From Candidatus Kapaibacterium sp. (lineage in GTDB: Bacteria; Bacteroidota; Ignavibacteria; Kapaibacteriales; UBA4661), in contig JANYIG010000267.1 in assembly GCA_025358765.1 (NCBI GenBank), forward strand, positions 1 through 48,793: a stretch of DNA of 48,793 bases, written 5' to 3'. Shown here piece by piece: positions 30,360 through 47,570 of the stretch. Within the stretch, counting starts at the first letter, position 1. Every line of letters starts with the position of its first letter. A model generated the notes under the pieces. The model was given only the letters and a program-made list of their open reading frames with translations, was not told the DNA's origin and did no database searches. The position numbers and the translations under genes are program-made.

Positions 30360-30947
30360 TTACGTCCAATGCGTCTCTCGATTACGTAGAAAGCTGAATG
30401 ACCGCAACAATGTTCGTTTAAGCGTTTTGCCCGCAATGCTCCAGTACGCTTGTTTGTAATCTTCCAGCGCAACCACGAGCAGTAGCTTCGTCCCTGTCTC
30501 CGTGCTAATTGCTCCGTGATGGCTTCCTGCCTCGGCGTGGTGGAAATCACCGGCATTAAGGATATGTCCCTGCACATTTGCCGTTCCTTCAAGGACGTAG
30601 CATTGCTCTGAGCCGGTGTGGTTATGCGACGGATACACGGCTCCCGGAGCCATTTTCATGAGCATCATCGCATAATTACGGTCTGTATCCTTCGCAAGGT
30701 TTTTTACCCACACACCCTCGTACTCGTGCGGCAACCAACCGCTTTCATCATCGTTGTTATACAGATAGGTAAATTGGGGCAATGGTGCTGGCTTTGAGAG
30801 TGTTTGTTGTTCTCGAATCTGCGCCATAATGGATATTTTTACGTATGATGGTGGAGAAGTGAGAACCACCGATGCTGGCAAATGTTGTGCTGCCCATACC
30901 ATTTCGGGCATTGAAGCATCATGGTCGTTAGGATGTGCTGTTTCCAT
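30360..30947 (-). CDS. ChrR-type cupin protein, probable anti-sigma partner lacking the usual zinc ASD
   Basis: From ATG 30947 the product is 195 residues. The C-terminal half is a ChrR-like cupin. His108, His110, Glu114 and His144 (SHNHTGSEQ ... GSHHG) repeat the spacing of the ChrR cupin zinc ligands (141, 143, 147, 177). Residues ~22-47 (LPASVVLTSPPSYVKISIMAQI) resemble the linker after the anti-sigma domain in RskA/ChrR proteins. The usual N-terminal HxxxCxxC anti-sigma domain is missing; only METAHPNDHD-type residues stand there. Start choice: ATG 30947 lies inside the sigma-factor gene, overlapping it by 20 bases in another frame, which implies translational coupling. Its likely job is to hold or sense for the ECF sigma factor encoded just upstream, by analogy with RpoE-ChrR (singlet oxygen). 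Direct binding is inference. Confidence 0.8.
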   Translation of the reverse strand: METAHPNDHDASMPEMVWAAQHLPASVVLTSPPSYVKISIMAQIREQQTLSKPAPLPQFTYLYNNDDESGWLPHEYEGVWVKNLAKDTDRNYAMMLMKMAPGAVYPSHNHTGSEQCYVLEGTANVQGHILNAGDFHHAEAGSHHGAISTETGTKLLLVVALEDYKQAYWSIAGKTLKRTLLRSFSFLRNRETHWT

Positions 30948-31530
30948 GGTCGTATTGTATTTGCTTTTGAAGAATATCGTGTAATTTTTGTAGCCCCTGC
31001 CGCATCCGAGTTTTAACCGTCCCAAGCGGGGTTTGAAGTTGTTCGGCGATTTCTGATTGCGTGTAACCCTGAAAATACGCCATTTCTAATGCCTCGCGTT
31101 GTCCCGTAGAAAGCTGCGCCAGTGCTGTACGGACAATACCAGCACGTTCCAATACTACTGTCGCATCCAACGGCGTGAGTGCTCCATCGGGGTGTTCCAA
31201 AACACCATCTAATGAGGTATCTGCTTGACGCTGCTCACGAAAGCTCTTCGATCGAAGTTTATCTATTGCCCGATTGCGCGTGAGTGCTACTAACCATGAA
31301 TAGGCAGTGCCGCGTGTGGGGTCGAAACTACCCGCATTGTTCCAGATTTGAATAAACACCTCTTGAAGCAAATCTTGGGCATCTGGTGGGTGCTTGAGCA
31401 TTGCCAAAATTACACTATAAAGCAGCCGCGCATAGCGCTCGTACAGCACTTCTAATGCTGCTTCATCCCGCCGAGCTATACGTTGCAACAGTTCGCGTTC
31501 TTCACTTATACCGTCTCTATATTGTTCCAT
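30928..31530 (-). CDS. ECF RNA polymerase sigma factor
   Basis: From ATG 31530 the product is 200 residues, normal for ECF sigma factors; the frame extends to 31605 but the extra 25 residues do not look native. Region 2 is clear: RYARLLYSVILAML, DLLQEVFIQIWNNAGSFDP and YSWLVALTRNRAIDKLR, which bind core polymerase and the -10 element. Region 4 has LSTGQREALEMAYFQGYTQSEIAEQLQTPLGTVKTRMRQGL, the -35-binding helix-turn-helix. The pattern is closest to the SigK-like/RpoE2-like ECF groups that pair with RskA or ChrR anti-sigmas, in line with the overlapping cupin gene. Targets are not known; self-regulation from the upstream 31531-31683 region is usual for such loci. Confidence 0.93.
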   Translation of the reverse strand: MEQYRDGISEERELLQRIARRDEAALEVLYERYARLLYSVILAMLKHPPDAQDLLQEVFIQIWNNAGSFDPTRGTAYSWLVALTRNRAIDKLRSKSFREQRQADTSLDGVLEHPDGALTPLDATVVLERAGIVRTALAQLSTGQREALEMAYFQGYTQSEIAEQLQTPLGTVKTRMRQGLQKLHDILQKQIQYDHGNSTS

Positions 31531-31683
31531 CCAACTACCAATACGAAAGTTTGTAGCATATAGATTGCTTATTTTGTTCGTAAGCATGTAAAAATTACGG
31601 AACAAGACGAACTGTTCCGCAAGAAACTTGTATCATCGTGAAAAATTTCGTAATTTCGCTGCGAGTGAAATTTTAAAATCACA

Positions 31684-36587: not shown

Positions 36588-37397
36588 TTACGGTAGCTGA
36601 CGGCGGATTTGCTGATAGCGCGTGGCAAAAAGATTCGCCTCCGTCGGAGCCGCAAGATTTGCATCGGCGACTTTTTTGTTAAATGCCTCAATACGGTCTT
36701 GCGGCAGGGGATGGGTTGACATTAAGCGTTCAAGCGTTCCGCCGGATTGCCCACCTTTGCTAATTTTCTCAAAAAAGTATTTTGCCGCACCAGCATACCA
36801 TTTGCTTGTTTTCAAGTAGCGAAAGGATAAATCATCTGCTTGTGCTTCGTCGTCGCGGCTGTTTTTGAGCAATGCCAAACCTGTGAACAAATTTGAGCCA
36901 ACCTGTGCCAATTGCCCGGGATTGGAGCCGAGCAAAAGATCCGTGACCACTTGTGCGCCATATGCCTTTGTCATGCGCTGGGTGGCGTGCCGCGCCTCAG
37001 CGTGACCAATTTCATGCCCTACAACGCCTGCCAATGTTGCCTCGTTATCCACAAACTTCATCAAGCCCGTGTAAACGTAAATATAGCCGCCAGGCGTACA
37101 AAACGCATTGATGGTTTTATCGTCATGAATGACCTCTACTTGGTACGCAAACTTGCCTTTGTACTTAACTTCCGGCGATTGCAGCAAATCGTTCACCATT
37201 GCTTGAATATACTGCTTGACAGGTTGGTTATTGAGAATCGGATATTCTTTCGGATTGCTGTGGATTTGCTCATCCACTTGCTTGCCGAGTTGGATGTCTG
37301 TATCCGTGCCGTAGAGATTTAACCCACAATATGTAGCCGTCGCGCATAGTGCGGCAATACAGCAATACGATAGAATTTTCTTGAAACGAGATTTCAT
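36588..37397 (-). CDS. M48-family metalloprotease (BepA/LoiP-like)
   Basis: A 269-residue exported zinc protease. Residues ~1-28 form a basic, hydrophobic export signal with a Cys at 24 (ATYCGLN); the lipobox is poor, so lipidation is uncertain. The catalytic site is HEIGH at 128-132 with third zinc ligand Glu184 in DEAQADDLSFRYL, the M48 layout. The conserved INAFCTPGGYIYVYTGL strand-loop lies at ~96-113, and the late MSTHPLPQDRIE segment is typical of BepA/YcaL/LoiP peptidases that act on outer-membrane protein assembly. No TPR domain is attached, unlike E. coli BepA. GGAGGG lies just before the ATG. It is the last gene of a minus-strand run and may cooperate with the TPR protein two genes upstream (inference). 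Confidence 0.93.
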   Translation of the reverse strand: MKSRFKKILSYCCIAALCATATYCGLNLYGTDTDIQLGKQVDEQIHSNPKEYPILNNQPVKQYIQAMVNDLLQSPEVKYKGKFAYQVEVIHDDKTINAFCTPGGYIYVYTGLMKFVDNEATLAGVVGHEIGHAEARHATQRMTKAYGAQVVTDLLLGSNPGQLAQVGSNLFTGLALLKNSRDDEAQADDLSFRYLKTSKWYAGAAKYFFEKISKGGQSGGTLERLMSTHPLPQDRIEAFNKKVADANLAAPTEANLFATRYQQIRRQLP

Positions 37398-37469
37398 GCG
37401 CCCTCCAGAAATGCGTACACAAAAAAGTAATCATTGATTTGCCGTAAAGATAGCAAAAAAGGCAGCATT

Positions 37470-38081
37470 TCAGAAAGGATTGTTCTTCAGCATGAGTGTT
37501 ATAGCAATACCAGCCGCCGCGCCAGAGAGAATGAGTGACCAATCACGACGCTGCACGTCCACAGGGCGCGTCATCAGCCAGGTGAGTGCAAGAGCCAACG
37601 TGACGATGAGGATTTGCCCAATCTCCAAGCCAATATTAAACGAGAAAAGTTGCAGCACGACATTCTGGTCACGTCCGAGTAGGCTTTTGAGGTAAGTGGA
37701 AAATCCCATACCGTGAATTAATCCAAATGTCATTGCCATTACGTATTTGGAACGCTCTTGGAAGCTGGTTTGTACGACTTCACTTCTACCCCGCAATGTA
37801 CGAATATTCACCACGCAGGTTAAGAAAATGGTGACGGGAATCAGAAACTCCACAATCTTCGACGGTAGTGTGAAAATATTGAGCGTCGAAAGTGCAAGTG
37901 TAATCGAATGTCCAATCGTAAACGCCGTAACGAGCCACAGAAGTCGCCTCCAATCTTGTGGCTGGTAAAGCGCACAAAGAGCCGTCACGAAGAGGATGTG
38001 GTCATAACCGTTGATGTCGGCAATATGCTGGAAACCAAGTTGGAGATAAATGAAAAATTCAGATTGTAGAATAGATTGCAT
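37470..38081 (-). CDS. HupE/UreJ-like integral membrane protein
   Basis: A 203-residue membrane protein with about six hydrophobic helices. It carries the HupE/UreJ-2 signature features: an early His and Asp-His pair (GFQHIADINGYDHILF: His19, Asp27, His28), TAFTIGHSITLALS with His58, and a later FGLIHGMGFS. HupE and UreJ are secondary nickel/cobalt permeases; the short 'HupE/UreJ_2' type seen here lacks a cleaved signal peptide. The metal is not proven. It sits 64 bases after the TPR gene on the same strand. The neighbouring block encodes a divalent-metal exporter, which fits a metal-related role, but the position could be coincidental. Confidence 0.8.
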   Translation of the reverse strand: MQSILQSEFFIYLQLGFQHIADINGYDHILFVTALCALYQPQDWRRLLWLVTAFTIGHSITLALSTLNIFTLPSKIVEFLIPVTIFLTCVVNIRTLRGRSEVVQTSFQERSKYVMAMTFGLIHGMGFSTYLKSLLGRDQNVVLQLFSFNIGLEIGQILIVTLALALTWLMTRPVDVQRRDWSLILSGAAAGIAITLMLKNNPF

Positions 38082-38145
38082 GAGACAGTCCTAATGTTCA
38101 TAAACACCGCAGAAAGAAATAATTCAGGACAAAGATACACATTCC

Positions 38146-39480
38146 TTACTTTGCAGCCATCATGCGCCGCGCATCCACGGCGTAGGGCAACTGTGCTGCA
38201 AGGTTTTCCCGCAATGCTTGTTGCAGGAACATTTTTGACTTGTCCGATTGTCCAAGCGCTTGGTATATCAAACCTGCGTGGTAATGAAGACTTGCGTTTT
38301 TTGTTCCCAAACGCATTGCACGTTCGATGAATGGCGGCGCTTCAGGCGCACGACCGTTTTTCACGAGGGCAAAAGCATAAGTATCTAAGGCATCAATATT
38401 GTCCGGACGGCTCTCGTAATCACGTTTGGCACGGGTGAGTGCTTCTGGAAGATTCATATCGTGATTCAGGCAAAATACAGCATATTCACGGTCAATATTC
38501 CAGCCTTCTTGCTCGTGTTGAAGGAACGCTTGCAGTGCTCTTTCCGCCATAGCGTGCGAGCTTTCAAGCTCGTTTGATGCTCGATAGACATCAGCAATTT
38601 GCTCTATAAATGTATGCTCCGGCGTAAGCTGTACGGCGCTTACCAAAAGTTCCACAGCGCCCGTCAAATCATCCTTTGCGGCTTTCACTCGTGCCAATCC
38701 GGCCATCGCATATGGGTATTGCGGACGCTCATCTAAAATGCCCTTAAAAATAAATGTCGCCGTGTCCATCTTGTTTTGCTGAATAAAAAGATTGCCAAGA
38801 TTGTACAGCACCCATGCACGATTTTCCTGCCCCGTTACGCCGGCATCGGCGGCAAGGCGCATGGCATCGGTCGCTCCGCCAAGGTCGCCATGAATCTCGC
38901 GCAAATATGACACCCGTGCATATGCCCGCAAATCGGGTCGCGTGGCGGTCATCTTGTCGGCAGTTTTTACGGCGGTTTCATATTCGCCCAACTCGACTTG
39001 AGCATCGCACAATGCCCCCAATGCCGCAGCGCTGTGGGTGTTTTGCGCCACACAGCGCTCGGCAAGTTCCCTTGCATTCTTGAATTGGTGGAAGGTGAGT
39101 AGTAGGCTTGATTTGGTTAGAAGTGCGTCAAAATTGTTGGGGGCGATACTGAGTGCCATGTCTAAAAGGTTATTTGCCTTCGGCACGTACTCGTGATGGT
39201 TGCCCGTCACCCGCGCTTCTTGCATGAATACTTGCGCGAGTTCGATATAGTTTTTTATAACATTTGGATGCAAGCGGATTTGTTCGCGGTAATATTCCAC
39301 GGTACGCTCGGCATTGAGATATTCTGAGGAAGGTTTTGCTTCTCCAGCACGACGTGAAATTGTAGGAACGGTGCGTTCGATTGCCGTTTGTGGCTTGCGA
39401 AGCAGCATATATGCGCTCACGGAAGCACTAACAATACCGATAGCAACGGCAAGGGCGGCGAATTTTTGTTTGTGGGTCAT
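38146..39480 (-). CDS. membrane-anchored tetratricopeptide repeat protein
   Basis: From ATG 39480 the product is 444 residues; the frame reaches 39534 but the extra 18 residues run into a 23-bp inverted repeat. A hydrophobic segment at ~7-25 (FAALAVAIGIVSASVSAYML) is a signal anchor or signal peptide. The rest (~60-440) is helical TPR pairs, about nine units, with the usual W-LG-Y-A-Y-A-P pattern: YNLGNLFIQQNKMDTATFIF, YPYAMAGLARVKAAKDDLTGA, LDTYAFALVKNGRAPEA and LHYHAGLIYQALGQSDKSK. TPRs hold protein partners; the partner here is unknown. Genome order DUF4331-TPR-HupE, all on one strand, suggests a shared job. Confidence 0.85.
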   Translation of the reverse strand: MTHKQKFAALAVAIGIVSASVSAYMLLRKPQTAIERTVPTISRRAGEAKPSSEYLNAERTVEYYREQIRLHPNVIKNYIELAQVFMQEARVTGNHHEYVPKANNLLDMALSIAPNNFDALLTKSSLLLTFHQFKNARELAERCVAQNTHSAAALGALCDAQVELGEYETAVKTADKMTATRPDLRAYARVSYLREIHGDLGGATDAMRLAADAGVTGQENRAWVLYNLGNLFIQQNKMDTATFIFKGILDERPQYPYAMAGLARVKAAKDDLTGAVELLVSAVQLTPEHTFIEQIADVYRASNELESSHAMAERALQAFLQHEQEGWNIDREYAVFCLNHDMNLPEALTRAKRDYESRPDNIDALDTYAFALVKNGRAPEAPPFIERAMRLGTKNASLHYHAGLIYQALGQSDKSKMFLQQALRENLAAQLPYAVDARRMMAAK

Positions 39481-39526
39481 TGGTATGGTTGTAAAATTTC
39501 TTGAAATCAAGAATGGATAGAATCTG

Positions 39527-39650
39527 GTTCTCATTGGTTTTAGTTGGAAAAACCAGTTTTTAGGAAAAAAAATTGCGGCTATGAATTGCGGTTATGAACT
39601 CCGGCTGGGGTTGGAATGACAGAACACTTCCAACTAAAACCAATGAGAAC
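39527..39650. mobile_element. 124-bp MITE-like element with perfect 23-bp inverted ends
   Basis: The left arm (39527-39549, begins GTTCTCATTGG, ends AGTTGGAA) is the exact complement of the right arm (39628-39650). The 78-base centre contains two copies of ATTGCGG(C/T)TATGA. It has no coding capacity. Perfect long ends around a short non-coding centre fit a miniature inverted-repeat element, but I cannot see target-site duplications with certainty. Confidence 0.55.
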
Positions 39651-39693
39651 TAAATTTTCAAGGTTTTTCGTAGGATTGCTGATACTATGCGTA

Positions 39694-39736
39694 TAAAAAA
39701 GGGACGCACGGAATGTTTGCACAGTATGTACGTCCC
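39694..39736 (-). terminator. probable Rho-independent terminator after the DUF4331 gene
   Basis: On the minus strand GGGACGTAC and GTGCGTCCC pair over 9 bp (one G-T), with an 18-base loop, followed by six T. The loop is long, so this is less certain than the other terminators. It would separate DUF4331 from the TPR gene. Confidence 0.5.
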
Positions 39737-39846
39737 ATCAAGTCTTCGTGGTTCGCCGGAACGTCAGTTGGAGAGGAACAGTACAGTAACACCAGAAAGG
39801 AAGTCACTGATAATTCACGTCGGAACACGAAGAGAAGTTTTTTGTA

Positions 39847-42078
39847 TTAGCGCGTCAGCAAGACTTTTTGTGTGGCAACGCGCTGTCCGTTCACTTCGAG
39901 TGTTACCATATACGTTCCTGTTGCCACATTCGCTGGAGTCCACGAAACCGCGTATTTACCGGCTTGCTGGCTCTGGTTGAGGATGGTTGCTATTTCTTGC
40001 CCTTGCATCGTAAACACCTTTACCGCTACGGAACCCGATTTTGCAACAAAGTATTGCAGTTCCGTGGAATTCGTGAACGGATTCGGTGAATTGGCGCTCA
40101 TAAAGCCACCCACAGGCGCACTCAAGCCAAGCGGGTCGTTCGACGTAGCCGCCACTACCGCCGTCACCGTTCCCGGAGCACTTGTGGTCAGCTGTTTTAC
40201 GTAATCGTAGCCACGATGCGGGTGTGGTTCGTACGGAAATGTTGTAAGCGTAGCTTTATCGTTTGCCGTTGGACCAGCATTGTACGACAGTTCTTTCACT
40301 AATTGTGGCGAAGCAAGATCGCTTAAATCAGCTTTTGTTGCATCGTCAAATGGCAACCCGACAGCCGCAAGCACCAAGCCGCCCAACGCCTGAAGTTCAA
40401 TCGTCGTTACGTCGTCTTCCAAACGCCGACCATTAGGGAAGCCGTCCAAATGGGGAATCGCTTCAAGGTTCTTGTTCGTGTTGTATGGCGCAGCCGTCAA
40501 GCCGATAGCTGCTGCACGAATCAAGCCCAAATACGCATTTTTCTTGAACTCATCTGTAGTGCGATCGGTGACGGGTGTTGCCATGTTCAGACGCAACATG
40601 TCGCCGCCGTAGAGCTTGCCGTCTGCGGTTTGCGTGAGCGGCAGAAAGTTGTTAATAAATGGTTTGCCCGCACTCAGTGGTCCGCCAGTTTTGCCCGTTG
40701 CTAATTGATATGGAATCGCATTCGGTACACCGAAGCAGAAAATTGGGAAAATATCTACCAAACGAGGCTTCCCAGCAGCAACCAGACCGGGTTGCACGGG
40801 AACAGCAATCGCAGTTCCAGCAAAGTTCAGCGCCGGAGTAATTTTGGTAAGAGCAAACGCGCCGTCTTTGCCATTGCGGAAATCCAAACCGGGCGTGGTA
40901 TAACCTGGGATCACGCCAAGCGCGGGATAAGATTTTGACTGGGTACGCAGCGCCGCGAGCGCCGGTATTGCATCACCAAAGTAAGGACCAGAGCCGTCTG
41001 GTAATACACCCGCCCCATTTGCCATGTACAGCACCGGTTCGGGATTTGCATAATAATCTGCAAATTTCTGTTCGTCAGCACTGTACGGCGTGACGGCATT
41101 CCAGTAGTCTTTCTGACCAATCGGAATCACAACTTCGTTTGTAAGCGGCATTCCTACACGCGAAACCTGCACCCAATCGCCACTGTACGTTGGTTTGTCG
41201 CCTGTTTTCGACAAAACTGATGTTTGCGGACGCGCGGCGGAAGCCCAGATGCCAATCACAAAATCGCCGTCGAGAATGTCTTTTGCTGCACTCACGTCTT
41301 TACCATCTTTTTGCAGCGATTTAATCGGGATTTGCAAACAAATCGCGTGGCAGTTAAAGCCTGAAAGAGCATCACGGGAATTTGCGGCATTTTTCGGGTC
41401 GCTACCAAACGAAGCACGGGTTTGCCCCAAATCAAACACGCCGCCCAAATCCACAAAAAACGCATCATCACGCGGTCCGCAAAAGATTTTTTCGCCGCCC
41501 GCTGCCGTTGCAATAGCGTTGCTTACGAGCGTTTCGTACTTTGTATTCATCCCCGCCCCGCCTTCAATGGAACGCGGACCAATGTTGTTTGGCGGAACCA
41601 CGCCGCCCGTGACAACTGCCGTGAATGTTTTGCCGCCGTCTGTGCTTTTTTCACACGTATAAGTTGTTTTTAAGTTTTGCTTACCCAAACGGATGTTGAA
41701 GAACGTTGTGGGGTCTTCGTTCGTTTGTTTGAAGGTAAAACGATACGTGATATCGTCAGTAGCAGAGCCAAGCGCACCAGCAGAGGTTTTGTTCTTGACG
41801 TGAATTTCGTAGCGGATGTTCTCACCAAACGTAGCATAATTCGGACCGCCTTCGGGCAGTTCAAGCGGAATATAGTTTGCGATAATCGTCACCGTACTGG
41901 GATTGTCGGGCGAACGAAAGGCATAAAGGTCAGTATTATCAGCAAGCGGGTCGTTGCTGATAAGCGGTGCTTCACGATGGCTGGAAGCATCTGTTTTTGC
42001 GGGCTGCATCAATGATAATCCGATGCCGCCTGTAAGTGCCGTCGCAACAAACGTTGCAGCGATGAGTAGTCGTTTCAT
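39847..42078 (-). CDS. DUF4331 protein with T9SS type A sorting domain
   Basis: A 743-residue secreted protein. The signal peptide is MKRLLIAATFVATALTGG... and the mature part begins with SSHREAPLISNDPLADNTDLYAF, the hallmark start of DUF4331 proteins. The family region continues to ~residue 640, with a Cys pair (GFNCHAICLQIP) and a RLEDDVTTIELQALGGL segment near its end. The last ~85 residues are a T9SS type A sorting domain: NSPNPFTNSTELQYFV, VAVKVFTMQGQEIA, AGKYAVSWTPANVATGTYMVTLE and a basic end. AGGAG lies nine bases before the ATG. DUF4331 has no established function. In FCB bacteria it is often encoded with TPR and HupE/UreJ-like proteins, as here (recalled association). The T9SS tail predicts a cell-surface location. 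Confidence 0.9.
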   Translation of the reverse strand: MKRLLIAATFVATALTGGIGLSLMQPAKTDASSHREAPLISNDPLADNTDLYAFRSPDNPSTVTIIANYIPLELPEGGPNYATFGENIRYEIHVKNKTSAGALGSATDDITYRFTFKQTNEDPTTFFNIRLGKQNLKTTYTCEKSTDGGKTFTAVVTGGVVPPNNIGPRSIEGGAGMNTKYETLVSNAIATAAGGEKIFCGPRDDAFFVDLGGVFDLGQTRASFGSDPKNAANSRDALSGFNCHAICLQIPIKSLQKDGKDVSAAKDILDGDFVIGIWASAARPQTSVLSKTGDKPTYSGDWVQVSRVGMPLTNEVVIPIGQKDYWNAVTPYSADEQKFADYYANPEPVLYMANGAGVLPDGSGPYFGDAIPALAALRTQSKSYPALGVIPGYTTPGLDFRNGKDGAFALTKITPALNFAGTAIAVPVQPGLVAAGKPRLVDIFPIFCFGVPNAIPYQLATGKTGGPLSAGKPFINNFLPLTQTADGKLYGGDMLRLNMATPVTDRTTDEFKKNAYLGLIRAAAIGLTAAPYNTNKNLEAIPHLDGFPNGRRLEDDVTTIELQALGGLVLAAVGLPFDDATKADLSDLASPQLVKELSYNAGPTANDKATLTTFPYEPHPHRGYDYVKQLTTSAPGTVTAVVAATSNDPLGLSAPVGGFMSANSPNPFTNSTELQYFVAKSGSVAVKVFTMQGQEIATILNQSQQAGKYAVSWTPANVATGTYMVTLEVNGQRVATQKVLLTR

Positions 42079-42270
42079 AAAAAACGCTCCTGGTTATAGA
42101 TGGACAAAATGTGGACAAAACGTGTGTTCCTGTTCCTCTCCAGATGCACAGCGCATGACGACCTAACCAGCATATCCTCAGATAAAGAACAAATACGGAG
42201 CAATAGTAAGGTTTGGATTTAAATATTTTCGCTCACCTGTGATTCAGAAATTTTTTCGTACATTTGAGAA

Positions 42271-42669
42271 ATGAAGTCTGTTGTTGCTATAATCTTGAGC
42301 GTCTGGTTTTGTGTGGGAGCATTGCTACCACAATCGGACATGGCGGAAGCGGGGAAAATCGCTTCGCTTATACAGCATTTCCGCGAACACCAACGCGAGC
42401 AACATATCACCTTTTTCGACTTCCTTGTGTTGCACTACAGCCCTTCGTCGCAGCATTCCCAATCGTCAGAACACCATAACCAACATCATTCGTTACCGCT
42501 TCATTCCTGCTCGTTTGCGGCGATTGCCGCTACCATGCTGGCGATGCCACAGCTACTCAGTATGGCTGCCGTCCGTGCCTTGCAAGCACAAACGCCAAAA
42601 TTCCTCGCTCACACGCCTTGCTACGCCTTCATTTTCTATACCTCCATCTTCCAACCCCCCAAGTTCTGA
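42271..42669 (+). CDS. small exported His-rich protein of the metal-efflux locus
   Basis: A 132-residue protein with an N-terminal signal peptide or anchor (MKSVVAIILSVWFCVGALLP). The FREHQREQHITFFDFLVLHY segment (~38-57) matches a family of small proteins encoded just ahead of CusA/CzcA pumps in Bacteroidota. It is followed by a Ser/His-rich stretch (HSQSSEHHNQHHSLPLHSC) that could bind metal, and a second hydrophobic segment at ~82-100. Function is unknown; a periplasmic metal-binding or sensing role is inferred from the His cluster and position. It is the first gene of the efflux locus. The overlapping frame at 42311-42742 is rejected. Confidence 0.7.
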   Translation: MKSVVAIILSVWFCVGALLPQSDMAEAGKIASLIQHFREHQREQHITFFDFLVLHYSPSSQHSQSSEHHNQHHSLPLHSCSFAAIAATMLAMPQLLSMAAVRALQAQTPKFLAHTPCYAFIFYTSIFQPPKF

Positions 42670-43103: not shown

Positions 43104-46100
43104 ATGCTTAACAGCATTATTTCATTTTCCATCCGCAATAAACTTATTATTGCCATGCTCACGCTCGTGCTTATTGCATGGGGCACGTACTCCGTTATAC
43201 AGTTGCCGATTGATGCTGTACCTGACATTACCAACAATCAGGTGCAAATCATTACTCGTAGCCCTTCGCTGGCTGCACAGGAAATCGAACGTCTTATCAC
43301 TTTTCCTGTGGAAACGGCATTAGCGAATATTCCCGGACGTGAGGAAATACGCTCTTTGTCGCGCTTCGGTTTATCGGTTGTAACAATAGTCTTCAAAGAA
43401 AACATTGATATTTATTGGGCGCGGCAGCAGGTTTCCGAACGAATGAAGGAAGCAGCCGTGCAAATTCCGCAAGGTATAGGCTCGCCGGAAATGGCACCTT
43501 TAACGACCGGCTTGGGTGAAATTTATCAATATGTATTGCAGCCAAAACAGGGTTTTAAAGACAAATTTTCGTTAATGGAATTGCGTTCCATCCAAGACTG
43601 GATTGTTCGCCGCCGCTTACTTGGCACCGAAGGCGTGGCAGATATTAGCAGTTTTGGTGGTCGCTTAAAACAATATGAAATTGCGCTTGATCCCGACCGC
43701 CTCCGTGCTTTGAACATTAGCATCGGGGATATTTTTACGGTATTGGAACACAACAATCAAAACACGGGCGGCGCTTATATTGATAAACAACCGCAAGCAT
43801 ATTTTATCCGAACCGAAGGTTTGGCGCGGAGTCTGGAGGACATTGGCAAAATTGCCGTCAAAACCCGTCCCGATGGTATTCCTGTACTTATCCGAGACGT
43901 GGCGACCGTACAATTTGGAAATGCGATTCGCTACGGAGCAATGACCCGCATCACTGCCGAAGGCGAGCGCGGTGAAGTCGTCGGTGGTATTGTAATGATG
44001 CTCAAGGGTGAAAATTCCTCGAAGGTAATTGCAAACGTAAAAGAACGTATTGCTGATATTGCCGCGTCGTTGCCCGAAGGTCTCGAAATTATCCCTTTTC
44101 TCGACCGAACAAAACTTGTGAACAACGCAATTTCTACTGTTTCCACAAATCTTGCCGAAGGTGCGTTGATTGTTGTGTGTGTGTTGGTACTCTTTCTGGG
44201 TAATCTTCGTGCGGGCTTGGTGGTTGCTTCTGCAATTCCGCTCTCGCTTCTTTTTGCCATTGCACTTATGAACATCTTTGGTGTATCGGGCAATCTTATG
44301 TCGTTGGGAGCAATTGATTTCGGCATTATTGTTGACGGGGCGGTCATTATTGTAGAAGCGACGCTGCACCACCTCCACGAACCTAAGGCGAACTACCGTT
44401 TGAAGCAAAGCCTCACGCAAGAAGAAATGGACGAGGAAGTGTATCAATCCGCCTCAAAGATTCTTTCTTCTGCCGCTTTTGGCGTTATTATCATTCTCAT
44501 TGTGTATTTACCGATTCTTTCGCTTGTGGGTGTCGAAGGTAAGATGTTCCGACCGATGGCGCAAACGGTAGCGTTTGCTATTTTGGGAGCGTTTATTCTG
44601 TCGCTTACTTATATCCCGATGATGTCTTCGCTCTTTTTGAGCAAAGAGCCTTATACGAAACAAAATTTTGCAGATCGCATGATGATGGTTCTCCGTCGCA
44701 ATTACGCACCCGTGCTGGTCTGGGCACTCAGGCGAAAAATTATTATTATCGCTGCTTCTTTTGTATTGTTCCTCGGTACTCTTGTTCTGTTTTTGTCAAT
44801 GGGAGGAGAATTTATTCCAACGCTCGACGAAGGTGATTTTGCCGTCGAAACTCGTACTCTGACTGGTTCTTCGCTTTCGCATACCCTCGAAACAACATTG
44901 CAAGCCGGCACACTGTTGACAAAAAATTTTCCCGAAGTAAAGCTGGTCGTTGGCAAAATTGGCTCTAGCGAAATTCCTACCGACCCCATGCCGATTGAAG
45001 CCGCCGACCTCATTATTATGCTTAAACCGCGCAATGAGTGGACAAGCGCACACTCACGCGACGAGCTTGCCGAAAAAATGCAAAACGCTCTTGAGGCAAT
45101 CCCGGGTGTGGAATTTGGTTTCCAACAGCCGATTCAAATGCGCTTTAATGAACTAATGACCGGAGCAAAACAAGATGTAGTGCTAAAAATTTATGGTGAA
45201 GACCTTGACGTACTTGCCGAACAAGCCGCAAAAGTGGGAAAAATTGCCTCCGGCATTCAAGGTGCAACCGATGTTTACATTGAGCGTGTGACAGGCTTGC
45301 AACAAATTGTCGTGCAGTTTGAGCGCGATGAATTAGCACGTTTCGGTGTGGCGGTGAACGACATTAATCAAGCCGTTCGGACGGCATTTGCTGGTGAAAC
45401 TGCGGGGCTGATGTTCGAGAATGAACGACGGTACGACCTTGTGGTACGTTTAGACACCGCAAGCAGAAGAACGCTTGAGGATGTCCAAAACCTCCTTATC
45501 ACAACACCCTCCGGCAATCAAGTTCCATTGCGCCAGCTTGCCTCGGTGCGGGTAGAGCTTGGACCAAATCAAATCCAACGCGAAGATGCAAAACGTCGTA
45601 TTATGGTTGGTTTTAATGTCCGCAACCGCGATGTGGAGAGCATCGTACTGGAGTTGCGCCAAAAAATTCAAGCGCAGGTAAAACTGCCCGTTGGATACTT
45701 CATCACCTACGGCGGCACGTTTGAAAACCTTGTCGAGGCAAAAAAACGCCTGTCTATTGCCGTACCGATTGCACTGCTGCTTATCTTTGCAATTTTATAT
45801 TTCACCTTTCACTCGGTCAAATACGGGCTGCTTATTTTTACGGCAATCCCGCTTTCGACTATTGGCGGCGTACTTGCGTTATGGCTGCGTGGTATGCCGT
45901 TTTCGATTTCAGCAGGTATCGGATTTATTGCGCTCTTCGGGGTGGCGGTGCTGAACGGCATTGTGCTTATTGGCTACTTTAACCGTTTGAAAGACGAAGG
46001 CATAACCGACATATGCGAAATAGTCATGCTCGGAACCTCAGCGCGTCTGCGTCCGGTGCTGATGACGGCAGCAGTTGCTTCGTTCGGTTTTTTACCGATG

Positions 46101-47570
46101 GCGATTTCTACATCATCCGGCGCAGAAGTCCAGAAGCCGCTTGCAACAGTTGTTATTGGCGGGCTGGTCTCGGCAACGCTCCTTACGCTTATTGTCCTAC
46201 CGGTGTTGTACGTTCTCGTAGAAACATGGTCGGAGCGGCGTATTATTCGCAAAGCCTATCGTGTAAAAAGTGGGCAAGCTGATAATCAAGCCGATAACCA
46301 AGCGGGTTCTGTTATTATTATCGCGCTGTTGTTGTTGGGCGCTGGGGCATTCCGTCCTGTGTTCGCCCAAACGCCGAATGCTCCGGGGCTTCAAAACTTG
46401 ACATTGGAACAAGCCATCGAAAGGGCAATCAAGCATAACCCCACGATCCAATCGGCAAACACAGAAATCAACCTACAACGCGCTTTAAAACGAACGGCAA
46501 CGGACATTGGCAAAACAAATGTTTCGCTGTCGTTAGGGCAATACAATAGTTTCGCACAGGATAATAATATTACTCTTTCGCAAACTATACCGTTCCCAAC
46601 CGTGTTTTTCGGGCAAGCTGCATTGGGCGAGGCGCAGGTTCGTGGTGCGGAGCTAAAACTTGCGACCACGCAAAACGAACTTGTGTATGCCGTAAAATCG
46701 GCGTTTTATCAAGTCGTGGTGCTGACGGAGCGCGAACGGCTGTTGCGCGAACAAGACAGTATGGTGACTATTTTTGTCAAGGCTGCTGATACGCGGCATA
46801 AAATCGGTGAAACTACGCAACTTGAGGCATCTACAGCCGCGTTGCAAGCCTCTGAAATCAACGTAGCACTTGCCCAAACCCGCGCCGATATTCACACGGC
46901 GGAGCGGCAATTGCAAACTATTCTGGCAAGTGATTCCTCTATTGGTATTATTCCACCTTCATCACTCAAGCGGGCGCTGCAAATGCCGAGTGATACAGCG
47001 ACGTTCGCACGTAACCCGCTTTACGCTTTCGTGAAGCAGCACATTGAGATTGCCGCTGCCGCCAAAACAGTAGAAGCAGCGCGTATTTTGCCCGATGTGA
47101 GCATAGGCTATTTTTCACAAACCCTGATTGGAACGCAGGAAGGCGGACGGGTCTATGGAGCAAGTGACCGTTTTTCGGGCTTTCAGGTTGGTATTTCGGT
47201 GCCGCTTTGGATTGTGCCGCAGCTCGCAAAGATAGAAGCAGCAGAGCTTGCAGCCGATATTGCCCGCACAAACGCTGAAGCCTATCGTCTCCAGCTTTCA
47301 GGCGTTTTTGCTAAGGCTGTGCAACAATTTTTGAAACTCCAAACCAGCGTAACGTTTTACGAACAAAACGCACTTCCACAAGCCGCTTTGGTACAATCCA
47401 CCGCGCAAAAACTGTACGAGCGCGGCGAAGTGGGTTATGTAGAATACTCGCAAAGCCTCGCCCGCGTTATCACGGTCAAAACGAACTATGTGGAATCCCT
47501 TGCACAGTATAATCAAGCCGTTCTCACGCTTGAATATCTTGCCGGAAATGACGTTGCAGAAATCAAATAA
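43104..47570 (+). CDS. CzcA/CusA-type heavy-metal RND pump fused to a TolC-type outer-membrane channel
   Basis: This 1488-residue chain joins two parts of a tripartite efflux pump. Residues ~1-1040 are a complete HME-type RND proton/metal antiporter. They hold LPIDAVPDITNNQVQIITRSP near the N-terminus, twelve TM helices, and the TM4 motif DFGIIVDGAVIIVEA (Asp405, Asp411), which is close to the DFG-DGA-VEN pattern of divalent-cation pumps (Zn/Co/Cd/Ni) with Asn changed to Ala. A short Gln/Asn/Asp linker leads to a hydrophobic, signal-peptide-like segment at ~1069-1088 ending VFAQ. The rest (~1095-1488) is an outer-membrane factor domain with two TolC repeats (LTLEQAIERAIKHNPTIQSA, LSQTIPFP, later GISVPLW and LYERGEVGYVEYSQS). 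Such fusions are known in Bacteroidota. The adaptor gene follows 27 bases downstream. Confidence 0.95.
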   Translation: MLNSIISFSIRNKLIIAMLTLVLIAWGTYSVIQLPIDAVPDITNNQVQIITRSPSLAAQEIERLITFPVETALANIPGREEIRSLSRFGLSVVTIVFKENIDIYWARQQVSERMKEAAVQIPQGIGSPEMAPLTTGLGEIYQYVLQPKQGFKDKFSLMELRSIQDWIVRRRLLGTEGVADISSFGGRLKQYEIALDPDRLRALNISIGDIFTVLEHNNQNTGGAYIDKQPQAYFIRTEGLARSLEDIGKIAVKTRPDGIPVLIRDVATVQFGNAIRYGAMTRITAEGERGEVVGGIVMMLKGENSSKVIANVKERIADIAASLPEGLEIIPFLDRTKLVNNAISTVSTNLAEGALIVVCVLVLFLGNLRAGLVVASAIPLSLLFAIALMNIFGVSGNLMSLGAIDFGIIVDGAVIIVEATLHHLHEPKANYRLKQSLTQEEMDEEVYQSASKILSSAAFGVIIILIVYLPILSLVGVEGKMFRPMAQTVAFAILGAFILSLTYIPMMSSLFLSKEPYTKQNFADRMMMVLRRNYAPVLVWALRRKIIIIAASFVLFLGTLVLFLSMGGEFIPTLDEGDFAVETRTLTGSSLSHTLETTLQAGTLLTKNFPEVKLVVGKIGSSEIPTDPMPIEAADLIIMLKPRNEWTSAHSRDELAEKMQNALEAIPGVEFGFQQPIQMRFNELMTGAKQDVVLKIYGEDLDVLAEQAAKVGKIASGIQGATDVYIERVTGLQQIVVQFERDELARFGVAVNDINQAVRTAFAGETAGLMFENERRYDLVVRLDTASRRTLEDVQNLLITTPSGNQVPLRQLASVRVELGPNQIQREDAKRRIMVGFNVRNRDVESIVLELRQKIQAQVKLPVGYFITYGGTFENLVEAKKRLSIAVPIALLLIFAILYFTFHSVKYGLLIFTAIPLSTIGGVLALWLRGMPFSISAGIGFIALFGVAVLNGIVLIGYFNRLKDEGITDICEIVMLGTSARLRPVLMTAAVASFGFLPMAISTSSGAEVQKPLATVVIGGLVSATLLTLIVLPVLYVLVETWSERRIIRKAYRVKSGQADNQADNQAGSVIIIALLLLGAGAFRPVFAQTPNAPGLQNLTLEQAIERAIKHNPTIQSANTEINLQRALKRTATDIGKTNVSLSLGQYNSFAQDNNITLSQTIPFPTVFFGQAALGEAQVRGAELKLATTQNELVYAVKSAFYQVVVLTERERLLREQDSMVTIFVKAADTRHKIGETTQLEASTAALQASEINVALAQTRADIHTAERQLQTILASDSSIGIIPPSSLKRALQMPSDTATFARNPLYAFVKQHIEIAAAAKTVEAARILPDVSIGYFSQTLIGTQEGGRVYGASDRFSGFQVGISVPLWIVPQLAKIEAAELAADIARTNAEAYRLQLSGVFAKAVQQFLKLQTSVTFYEQNALPQAALVQSTAQKLYERGEVGYVEYSQSLARVITVKTNYVESLAQYNQAVLTLEYLAGNDVAEIK

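Follow-up and report, generated by a model that had tools for sequence, protein, structure and literature searches.

Organization of the locus

The window considered here is the entire 48,793-nucleotide stretch of contig JANYIG010000267.1 from Candidatus Kapaibacterium sp., and the system in question is a set of three genes within it, which encode a DUF4331 protein, a tetratricopeptide repeat (TPR) protein, and a HupE/UreJ-like permease. Profile searches of the window place these genes and that of an M48 protease on the minus strand, and matches above the cut-offs for PF14224, TPR, PF13795, and PF01435 agree with the four same-strand genes of the first-pass annotation. On balance, DUF4331, TPR, and HupE appear to form a conserved envelope module for metal acquisition, for which nickel is the most likely metal and cobalt or copper a possible one. 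The window holds only these three core genes of the module, with the following features.

39847-42078, minus strand: DUF4331 protein, 743 residues (PF14224, 389.8 bits); single copy in the window's genome
41977-41985, minus strand: codons for Ser32-Ser33-His34, the predicted mature start NH2-Ser-Ser-His, a Cu/Ni motif of the amino-terminal Cu(II)- and Ni(II)-binding (ATCUN) type (motif alignment)
39850-40086, minus strand: C-terminal sorting domain for the type IX secretion system (T9SS), residue 665 onward in the DUF4331 protein (TIGR04183; fold of the PorU C-terminal domain)
38146-39480, minus strand (open frame from 39534): TPR protein with an N-terminal membrane anchor (several TPR models above cut-off)
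37470-38081, minus strand: HupE_UreJ_2 permease, 203 residues (PF13795, 171.5 bits)

The DUF4331 protein and its predicted mature N terminus

The DUF4331 protein comprises a signal peptide, assigned by sequence, a core formed by residues 32-616, and a T9SS C-terminal domain. The match to PF14224 (cut-off 27 bits) spans profile positions 1-417 of 421. The C-terminal tail scores 36.4 bits against TIGR04183 (cut-off 23) and 25.8, slightly below the cut-off of 27, against the Pfam model PF18962, and its predicted structure resembles the C-terminal domain of PorU (6za2; Z 10.9, rmsd 2.2 over 88 residues). The profile and fold matches to this tail bear out the T9SS export proposed in the first-pass annotation, and the TPR protein, judged by its sequence, likewise appears to be anchored as given there. 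A crude lipobox pattern, present in 35 of 96 TPR proteins, was given no weight.

The N termini of 156 of 157 full-length DUF4331 proteins from several phyla (148 unique sequences; one protein with too little upstream sequence was dropped) were aligned. Ser-Ser-His-Arg-Glu-Ala occupies positions +1 to +6 in all 148 unique sequences, and conservation begins abruptly at the predicted mature Ser-Ser-His. At position -1, 138 sequences have Ala, 7 have Ser, and 3 have Gly. The signal peptides upstream are unconstrained, with ~3.7 bits at -2 and -4, apart from an entropy dip to 2.55 bits at -3, as expected for signal peptidase. The natural reading of this pattern is that the mature chain starts with Ser-Ser-His, an ATCUN motif. 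ATCUN motifs bind Cu(II) and Ni(II). His3 is the sole invariant histidine in 58 aligned DUF4331 sequences, and the ten short forms listed carry Ala-Asp-His in place of Ser-Ser-His. Such split or short forms, as neighboring frames, account for 19 of the 38 genomes that contain PF14224 in the sample described below, and full-length proteins account for the other 19. In some families (L049-L058), DUF4331 is split into two short adjoining genes of about 220 and 185 residues that cover the halves of the profile.

Sequence comparison revealed no convincing solved relative of DUF4331 (best E 0.027), and a fold search with the model of the full protein gave clear matches only for the T9SS tail. For the N-terminal half (mature residues 1-300), generic immunoglobulin (Ig)-like β-sandwich entries were returned (best Z 8.5, rmsd 3.7 over 109 residues). 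Many antibody domains score equally well, with Foldseek E 0.023 or worse, and the result is unspecific and excludes no family.

Conservation of the gene cluster

Co-occurrence was surveyed in 296 genomes that sample the phylum evenly; the p-values given here and below ignore shared ancestry. PF14224 is present in 38 and PF13795 in 87 of these genomes, and HupE is found in 25 of the 38 DUF4331 genomes versus 62 of the 258 others (p 6e-7). In nine genomes (G000, G033, G072, G126, G140, G150, G166, G200, and G280), the DUF4331 and HupE genes lie close together on the same strand, 6.6 kb apart in G280; if the probability in any one genome is taken as 0.5%, ~0.1 genomes would be expected by chance.

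Of the 37 other DUF4331 genomes of the sample, 28 contributed loci, and a wider contig scan retained 80 of 564 relatives, with close ones favored. A TPR homologue stands beside DUF4331 in 27 of the 28 sample loci and in 62 of the 64 usable loci of the wider scan. Among 54 loci of that scan, 26 have HupE and 36 have a TonB receptor. The gap between the TPR and HupE genes has a median of 18 nt (37 loci). A gene pair for an extracytoplasmic function (ECF) sigma factor and an RskA-like anti-sigma factor is located near DUF4331 in 8 of 23 and 6 of 46 loci, and more than one copy of DUF4331 is present in 50 of the 80 wider-scan loci. From these linkage counts, the module can be written as [sigma/anti-sigma]-DUF4331-TPR-HupE-TonB receptor, although some loci lack one part or another. 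The TPR and HupE genes are thus strongly enriched with DUF4331 and adjacent to it, the opposite of the lack of enrichment that the first-pass annotation had named as telling against its proposal; that account has neither the sigma/anti-sigma pair nor the N-terminal motif nor the TonB receptor.

The window also encodes, at 30928-31587, an ECF sigma factor (221 bits) that resembles those beside DUF4331 in other genomes; it is positioned ~8 kb from the DUF4331 gene, with no recognized anti-sigma gene beside it.

Beyond the phylum, 8 of 34 plasmid records with DUF4331 were opened. A TPR-like gene follows DUF4331 in seven of these loci (at L151 its score stays under the Pfam cut-offs), and four contain a nickel-type permease. 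Among Proteobacteria, the order DUF4331-TPR-HupE is observed in Variovorax, Marinobacter, and a member of the Comamonadaceae; Streptomyces anulatus has DUF4331-TPR-NicO with a sortase gene close by. The Jannaschia plasmid locus contains neither a TPR-like gene nor a nickel-type permease.

The TonB receptor and its nickel context

In the TonB receptor of the DUF4331 clusters, the plug is strikingly rich in His and invariant. The receptor subfamily is found in 45 of the 296 genomes, namely in 24 of the 38 with DUF4331 versus 21 of the 258 others (p 1e-13), and in 18 it lies within 10 kb of DUF4331. The receptor gene is found inside the urease operons of G186, G206, and G210, the first of which is confirmed by genes for urease alpha, a UreG-type protein, and a urea transporter; the G198 copy, more distant at 252 bits, is located between nikR and an ATP-binding cassette system with a NikA-type binding protein. 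Across the sample, urease is present in 9 of the 45 receptor genomes versus 1 of the 251 others (p 2e-7). Sixteen plasmid receptor loci, 14 outside Bacteroidota and two within, were opened among 48 plasmid records. In 8 of the 14, including the hydrogenase plasmids of Cupriavidus and Afipia, nikR or NiCoT is located beside the receptor, and in one, cobalamin genes alone are. The neighboring urease, nikR, and NiCoT genes point to a receptor subfamily of nickel type, with cobalt as the second choice. Bll6948 and Daro_3944 are predicted nickel TonB-dependent transporters (excerpts of PMC11247825 and PMC7142613); their likeness to the receptor described here lies in the nickel assignment, by printed listing rather than by sequence.

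Two further arrangements involve this receptor. Bacteroidota urease operons (L178-L180) carry it near their end, together with a 233-residue membrane protein that matches no Pfam family. Two other loci (L169, 3255-11666, and L182, 6505-11271) combine HupE and the same nickel-type receptor with DUF3500 proteins, one of which has a T9SS tail, and contain no DUF4331; DUF3500 may take the part of DUF4331 there.

The HupE permease and N-terminal histidine proteins

The permease matches HupE_UreJ_2 well above the cut-off of 24.5 bits, and the older PF04955 model scores below its own cut-off. Residues H19, D27, H28, H58, H123, and E153 are invariant in eight aligned members. In 35 of 40 HupE copies from the clusters, a leader is followed by His, as Ala-His in 32; this His (loci L034-L126) follows the signal peptide and precedes the membrane core by about 20 residues. 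The five copies that have no such leader and His are those of the window, L038, L047, L048, and L063, and the window's HupE has no extra domain either. L038 and L048 have a DUF6702-type gene between their TPR and HupE genes, and sequence likeness suggests the same arrangement for L063. The window's genome has one DUF6702 gene outside the cluster (L185; C275 15973-16389).

DUF6702, DUF4198, and the N-terminal domains of HupE/UreJ-2 were shown in 2025 to be metal-binding proteins with an N-terminal His, and DUF6702 is a Ni/Co-binding family in which nickel binding gave the largest shift (PMC12537917; here and below, statements from this source refer to excerpts of its text). The Ang-1 and Ang-2 “anglerases” of that study combine an exported metal-binding part that has a mature N-terminal His with a permease of the same family, PF13795; the DUF4331-HupE pair resembles them in its permease and in its proposed exported metal binder with a predicted His near the mature end. 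DUF4331 differs in being a separate, larger gene product with its predicted His at position 3 rather than 1, and in the window, DUF4331 and HupE are separate genes, which places the cluster outside the anglerases as defined by a His1 domain fused to the permease. Similarly, the DUF4198 and DUF6702 N-terminal-His proteins are small, exported, and metal-binding, and DUF4198 has TonB and NikR neighbors (PMC12537917); DUF6702 is encoded inside the three clusters mentioned above. Unlike them, DUF4331 belongs to another Pfam family, has a 421-position domain, and often bears a surface-sorting tail. In the excerpts of PMC12537917, DUF4331 is not mentioned among the matches listed for DUF and PF14224, and a literature search found no paper that names DUF4331 or PF14224.

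Neighboring genes and elements

The remaining features of the locus lie outside the conserved module.

39701-39736, minus strand: intrinsic terminator between the DUF4331 and TPR genes, with its U tract at 39700-39695 (9-bp stem, -17.7 kcal/mol, z -2.98)
39521-39656, no strand: element resembling a miniature inverted-repeat transposable element (MITE) between the DUF4331 and TPR genes (inverted arms, multicopy)
36588-37397, minus strand: M48 lipoprotein-like protease (PF01435, 107.1 bits; HEIGH motif)
43104-47570, divergent: CzcA/CusA-type resistance-nodulation-division pump fused in one frame to a TolC-like outer-membrane part (profile matches)

Six U residues directly follow the terminator stem (39736-39701), the loop of which is too large for the simple scan that missed it. 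The 29-nt arms of the MITE-like element (39521-39549 and 39628-39656) are 93% complementary, and a 126-bp query over the element matches the window's own genome, in full or in part, at 50 places. Because the initial codons of the TPR frame fall within one of these arms, its start at 39534 is probably wrong and Met19 (39480) is the likely one. The stem-loop energy, the inverted arms, and the genomic copies confirm the terminator and MITE-like element noted between these genes in the first-pass annotation, and the CzcA/CusA-TolC fusion likewise corresponds to its divergent metal-efflux neighbor. The role given there to the protease as part of the block, and to the exporter as a linked partner, did not hold: M48 stands beside DUF4331 in 0 of 28 sample and 0 of 80 wider-scan loci (0 of 108 other loci), and CzcA is near DUF4331 in 4 of the 108, which rules both out as module members. 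Upstream of the pump, a small, exported-looking His-rich frame (42271-42669; HHNQHH) with a near-consensus promoter at 42264-42293 probably encodes a metal-binding protein that assists it.

A proposed metal-acquisition module and its alternatives

DUF4331 probably belongs to an overlooked metal-acquisition system because it resides in a widely conserved cluster with a nickel-type permease and often a TonB receptor of nickel type, and has a predicted mature N terminus with a Cu/Ni motif. In such a system, DUF4331 would be exported, in the window's organism to the cell surface by T9SS, and the mature NH2-Ser-Ser-His would bind a square-planar metal ion. In many relatives, the nickel-type TonB receptor would pass the metal, or a complex of it, through the outer membrane, and HupE would carry it across the inner membrane, with the membrane-anchored TPR protein as a putative scaffold or hand-over partner. 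The surface metal-binding DUF4331 working with HupE that the first-pass annotation proposed is thus supported by the linkage, the receptor, and the predicted Ser-Ser-His; that DUF4331 binds metal, and which metal, we infer. More specifically, and tentatively, DUF4331 could be a protein nickelophore, a secreted or surface carrier in which Ser-Ser-His takes Ni(II) or Cu(II) and passes it to the TonB receptor where one is present. The HasA-HasR system, a secreted heme carrier and its TonB receptor, is comparable by description in that a secreted protein would bring a cofactor to a TonB receptor, there heme and here a metal ion.

Several observations weigh against nickel acquisition. Urease and hydrogenase were counted only from matches over 180 and 190 bits, with weaker ones dropped as look-alikes. 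On this basis, urease or NiFe hydrogenase is found in only 7 of the 38 DUF4331 genomes, and DUF4331 is depleted among genomes with NiFe hydrogenase (3 of 38 versus 77 of 258), both among the matches listed. Urease is weakly enriched with DUF4331 (4 of 38 versus 6 of 258, p 0.03), and CobN is present in 3 of the 38; the search for nickel superoxide dismutase returned 0 of 38 with a control that was silent everywhere, and is not read as absence. In the window's genome, profile searches found neither urease nor CobN, no NiFe hydrogenase was found among the matches listed, and the best matches to the receptor reach 71.9 bits or less and cover only the N-terminal part of its profile, so that the receptor was not found there. 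No Ni/Co gene is located at 5 of the 14 opened plasmid receptor loci, and in the window, the terminator and MITE-like element separate DUF4331 from TPR. The DUF4331 model does not closely resemble a known metal protein, its N-terminal half being generic Ig-like, and its N terminus is poorly modeled, with low confidence for the first ten residues. As for the mature end, all 148 sequences would also obey the -3/-1 rule if the cut fell directly before His, and a strict residue set fits cleavage at Ser-Ser-His in 111 of 148; in the former case, Ser-Ser would be an invariant part of a discarded signal peptide, which is unlikely.

A module of the same kind that serves copper, with HupE_UreJ_2 possibly a copper permease, is a rather doubtful reading that draws on the affinity of ATCUN motifs for Cu(II) and on the few nickel enzymes in DUF4331 genomes among the matches listed. 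The Ang-1 domain fused to HupE/UreJ-2, which prefers Cu over Ni (Kd 74 nM versus 220 nM), also speaks for copper and against nickel (PMC12537917). This reading has to be set against the ties of the receptor subfamily to urease, nikR, and NiCoT, the NicO gene of the Streptomyces cluster, and the presence in some clusters of DUF6702, the family with the largest shift for nickel (PMC12537917).

It is unlikely that DUF4331 instead uses the metal itself, or calcium given the many invariant Asp, as an enzyme or structural protein of the surface, with HupE and the receptor only securing the supply. Invariant columns do extend over the whole core, with many Asp and Glu, beyond the needs of a simple chelating tail, and the module is present where known nickel enzymes were not found among the matches listed. 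HupE and the receptor, however, would import inward, which is of no direct service to an extracellular enzyme, and no enzyme fold matched the DUF4331 core, a weak test.

That the genes form a metal-defense unit, in which DUF4331 sequesters excess metal outside the cell beside an exporter, is quite improbable: the neighboring CzcA pump of the window, and the induction of a HupE-like gene and TonB receptors by high nickel in Sphingobium ba1 (excerpt of PMC5557971), would fit, but CzcA accompanies DUF4331 in just 4 of 108 other loci, and the receptor and permease are of uptake type. Mere adjacency of four functionally unlinked genes, as the terminator and MITE-like element of the window might suggest, is very improbable, since the gene order is conserved over several phyla; the co-occurrence survey refutes it for DUF4331-TPR-HupE, and it holds for M48 and CzcA.

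Implications

The metal-acquisition module proposed here most likely extends the theme of metal capture by an N-terminal His rather than representing a wholly new kind of system. The widespread DUF4331 family lacks an assigned role, and metal capture would explain the protein and its surrounding genes together; the mature Ser-Ser-His is a motif open to a simple binding assay. If the proposal is true, it would add a surface-exposed protein step to the uptake of nickel (or copper) and would link urease-type nickel receptors to genomes without a known nickel enzyme. As a nickelophore, if it is one, DUF4331 would be a protein-based counterpart of small-molecule nickel carriers, in both Gram-negative and Gram-positive phyla.

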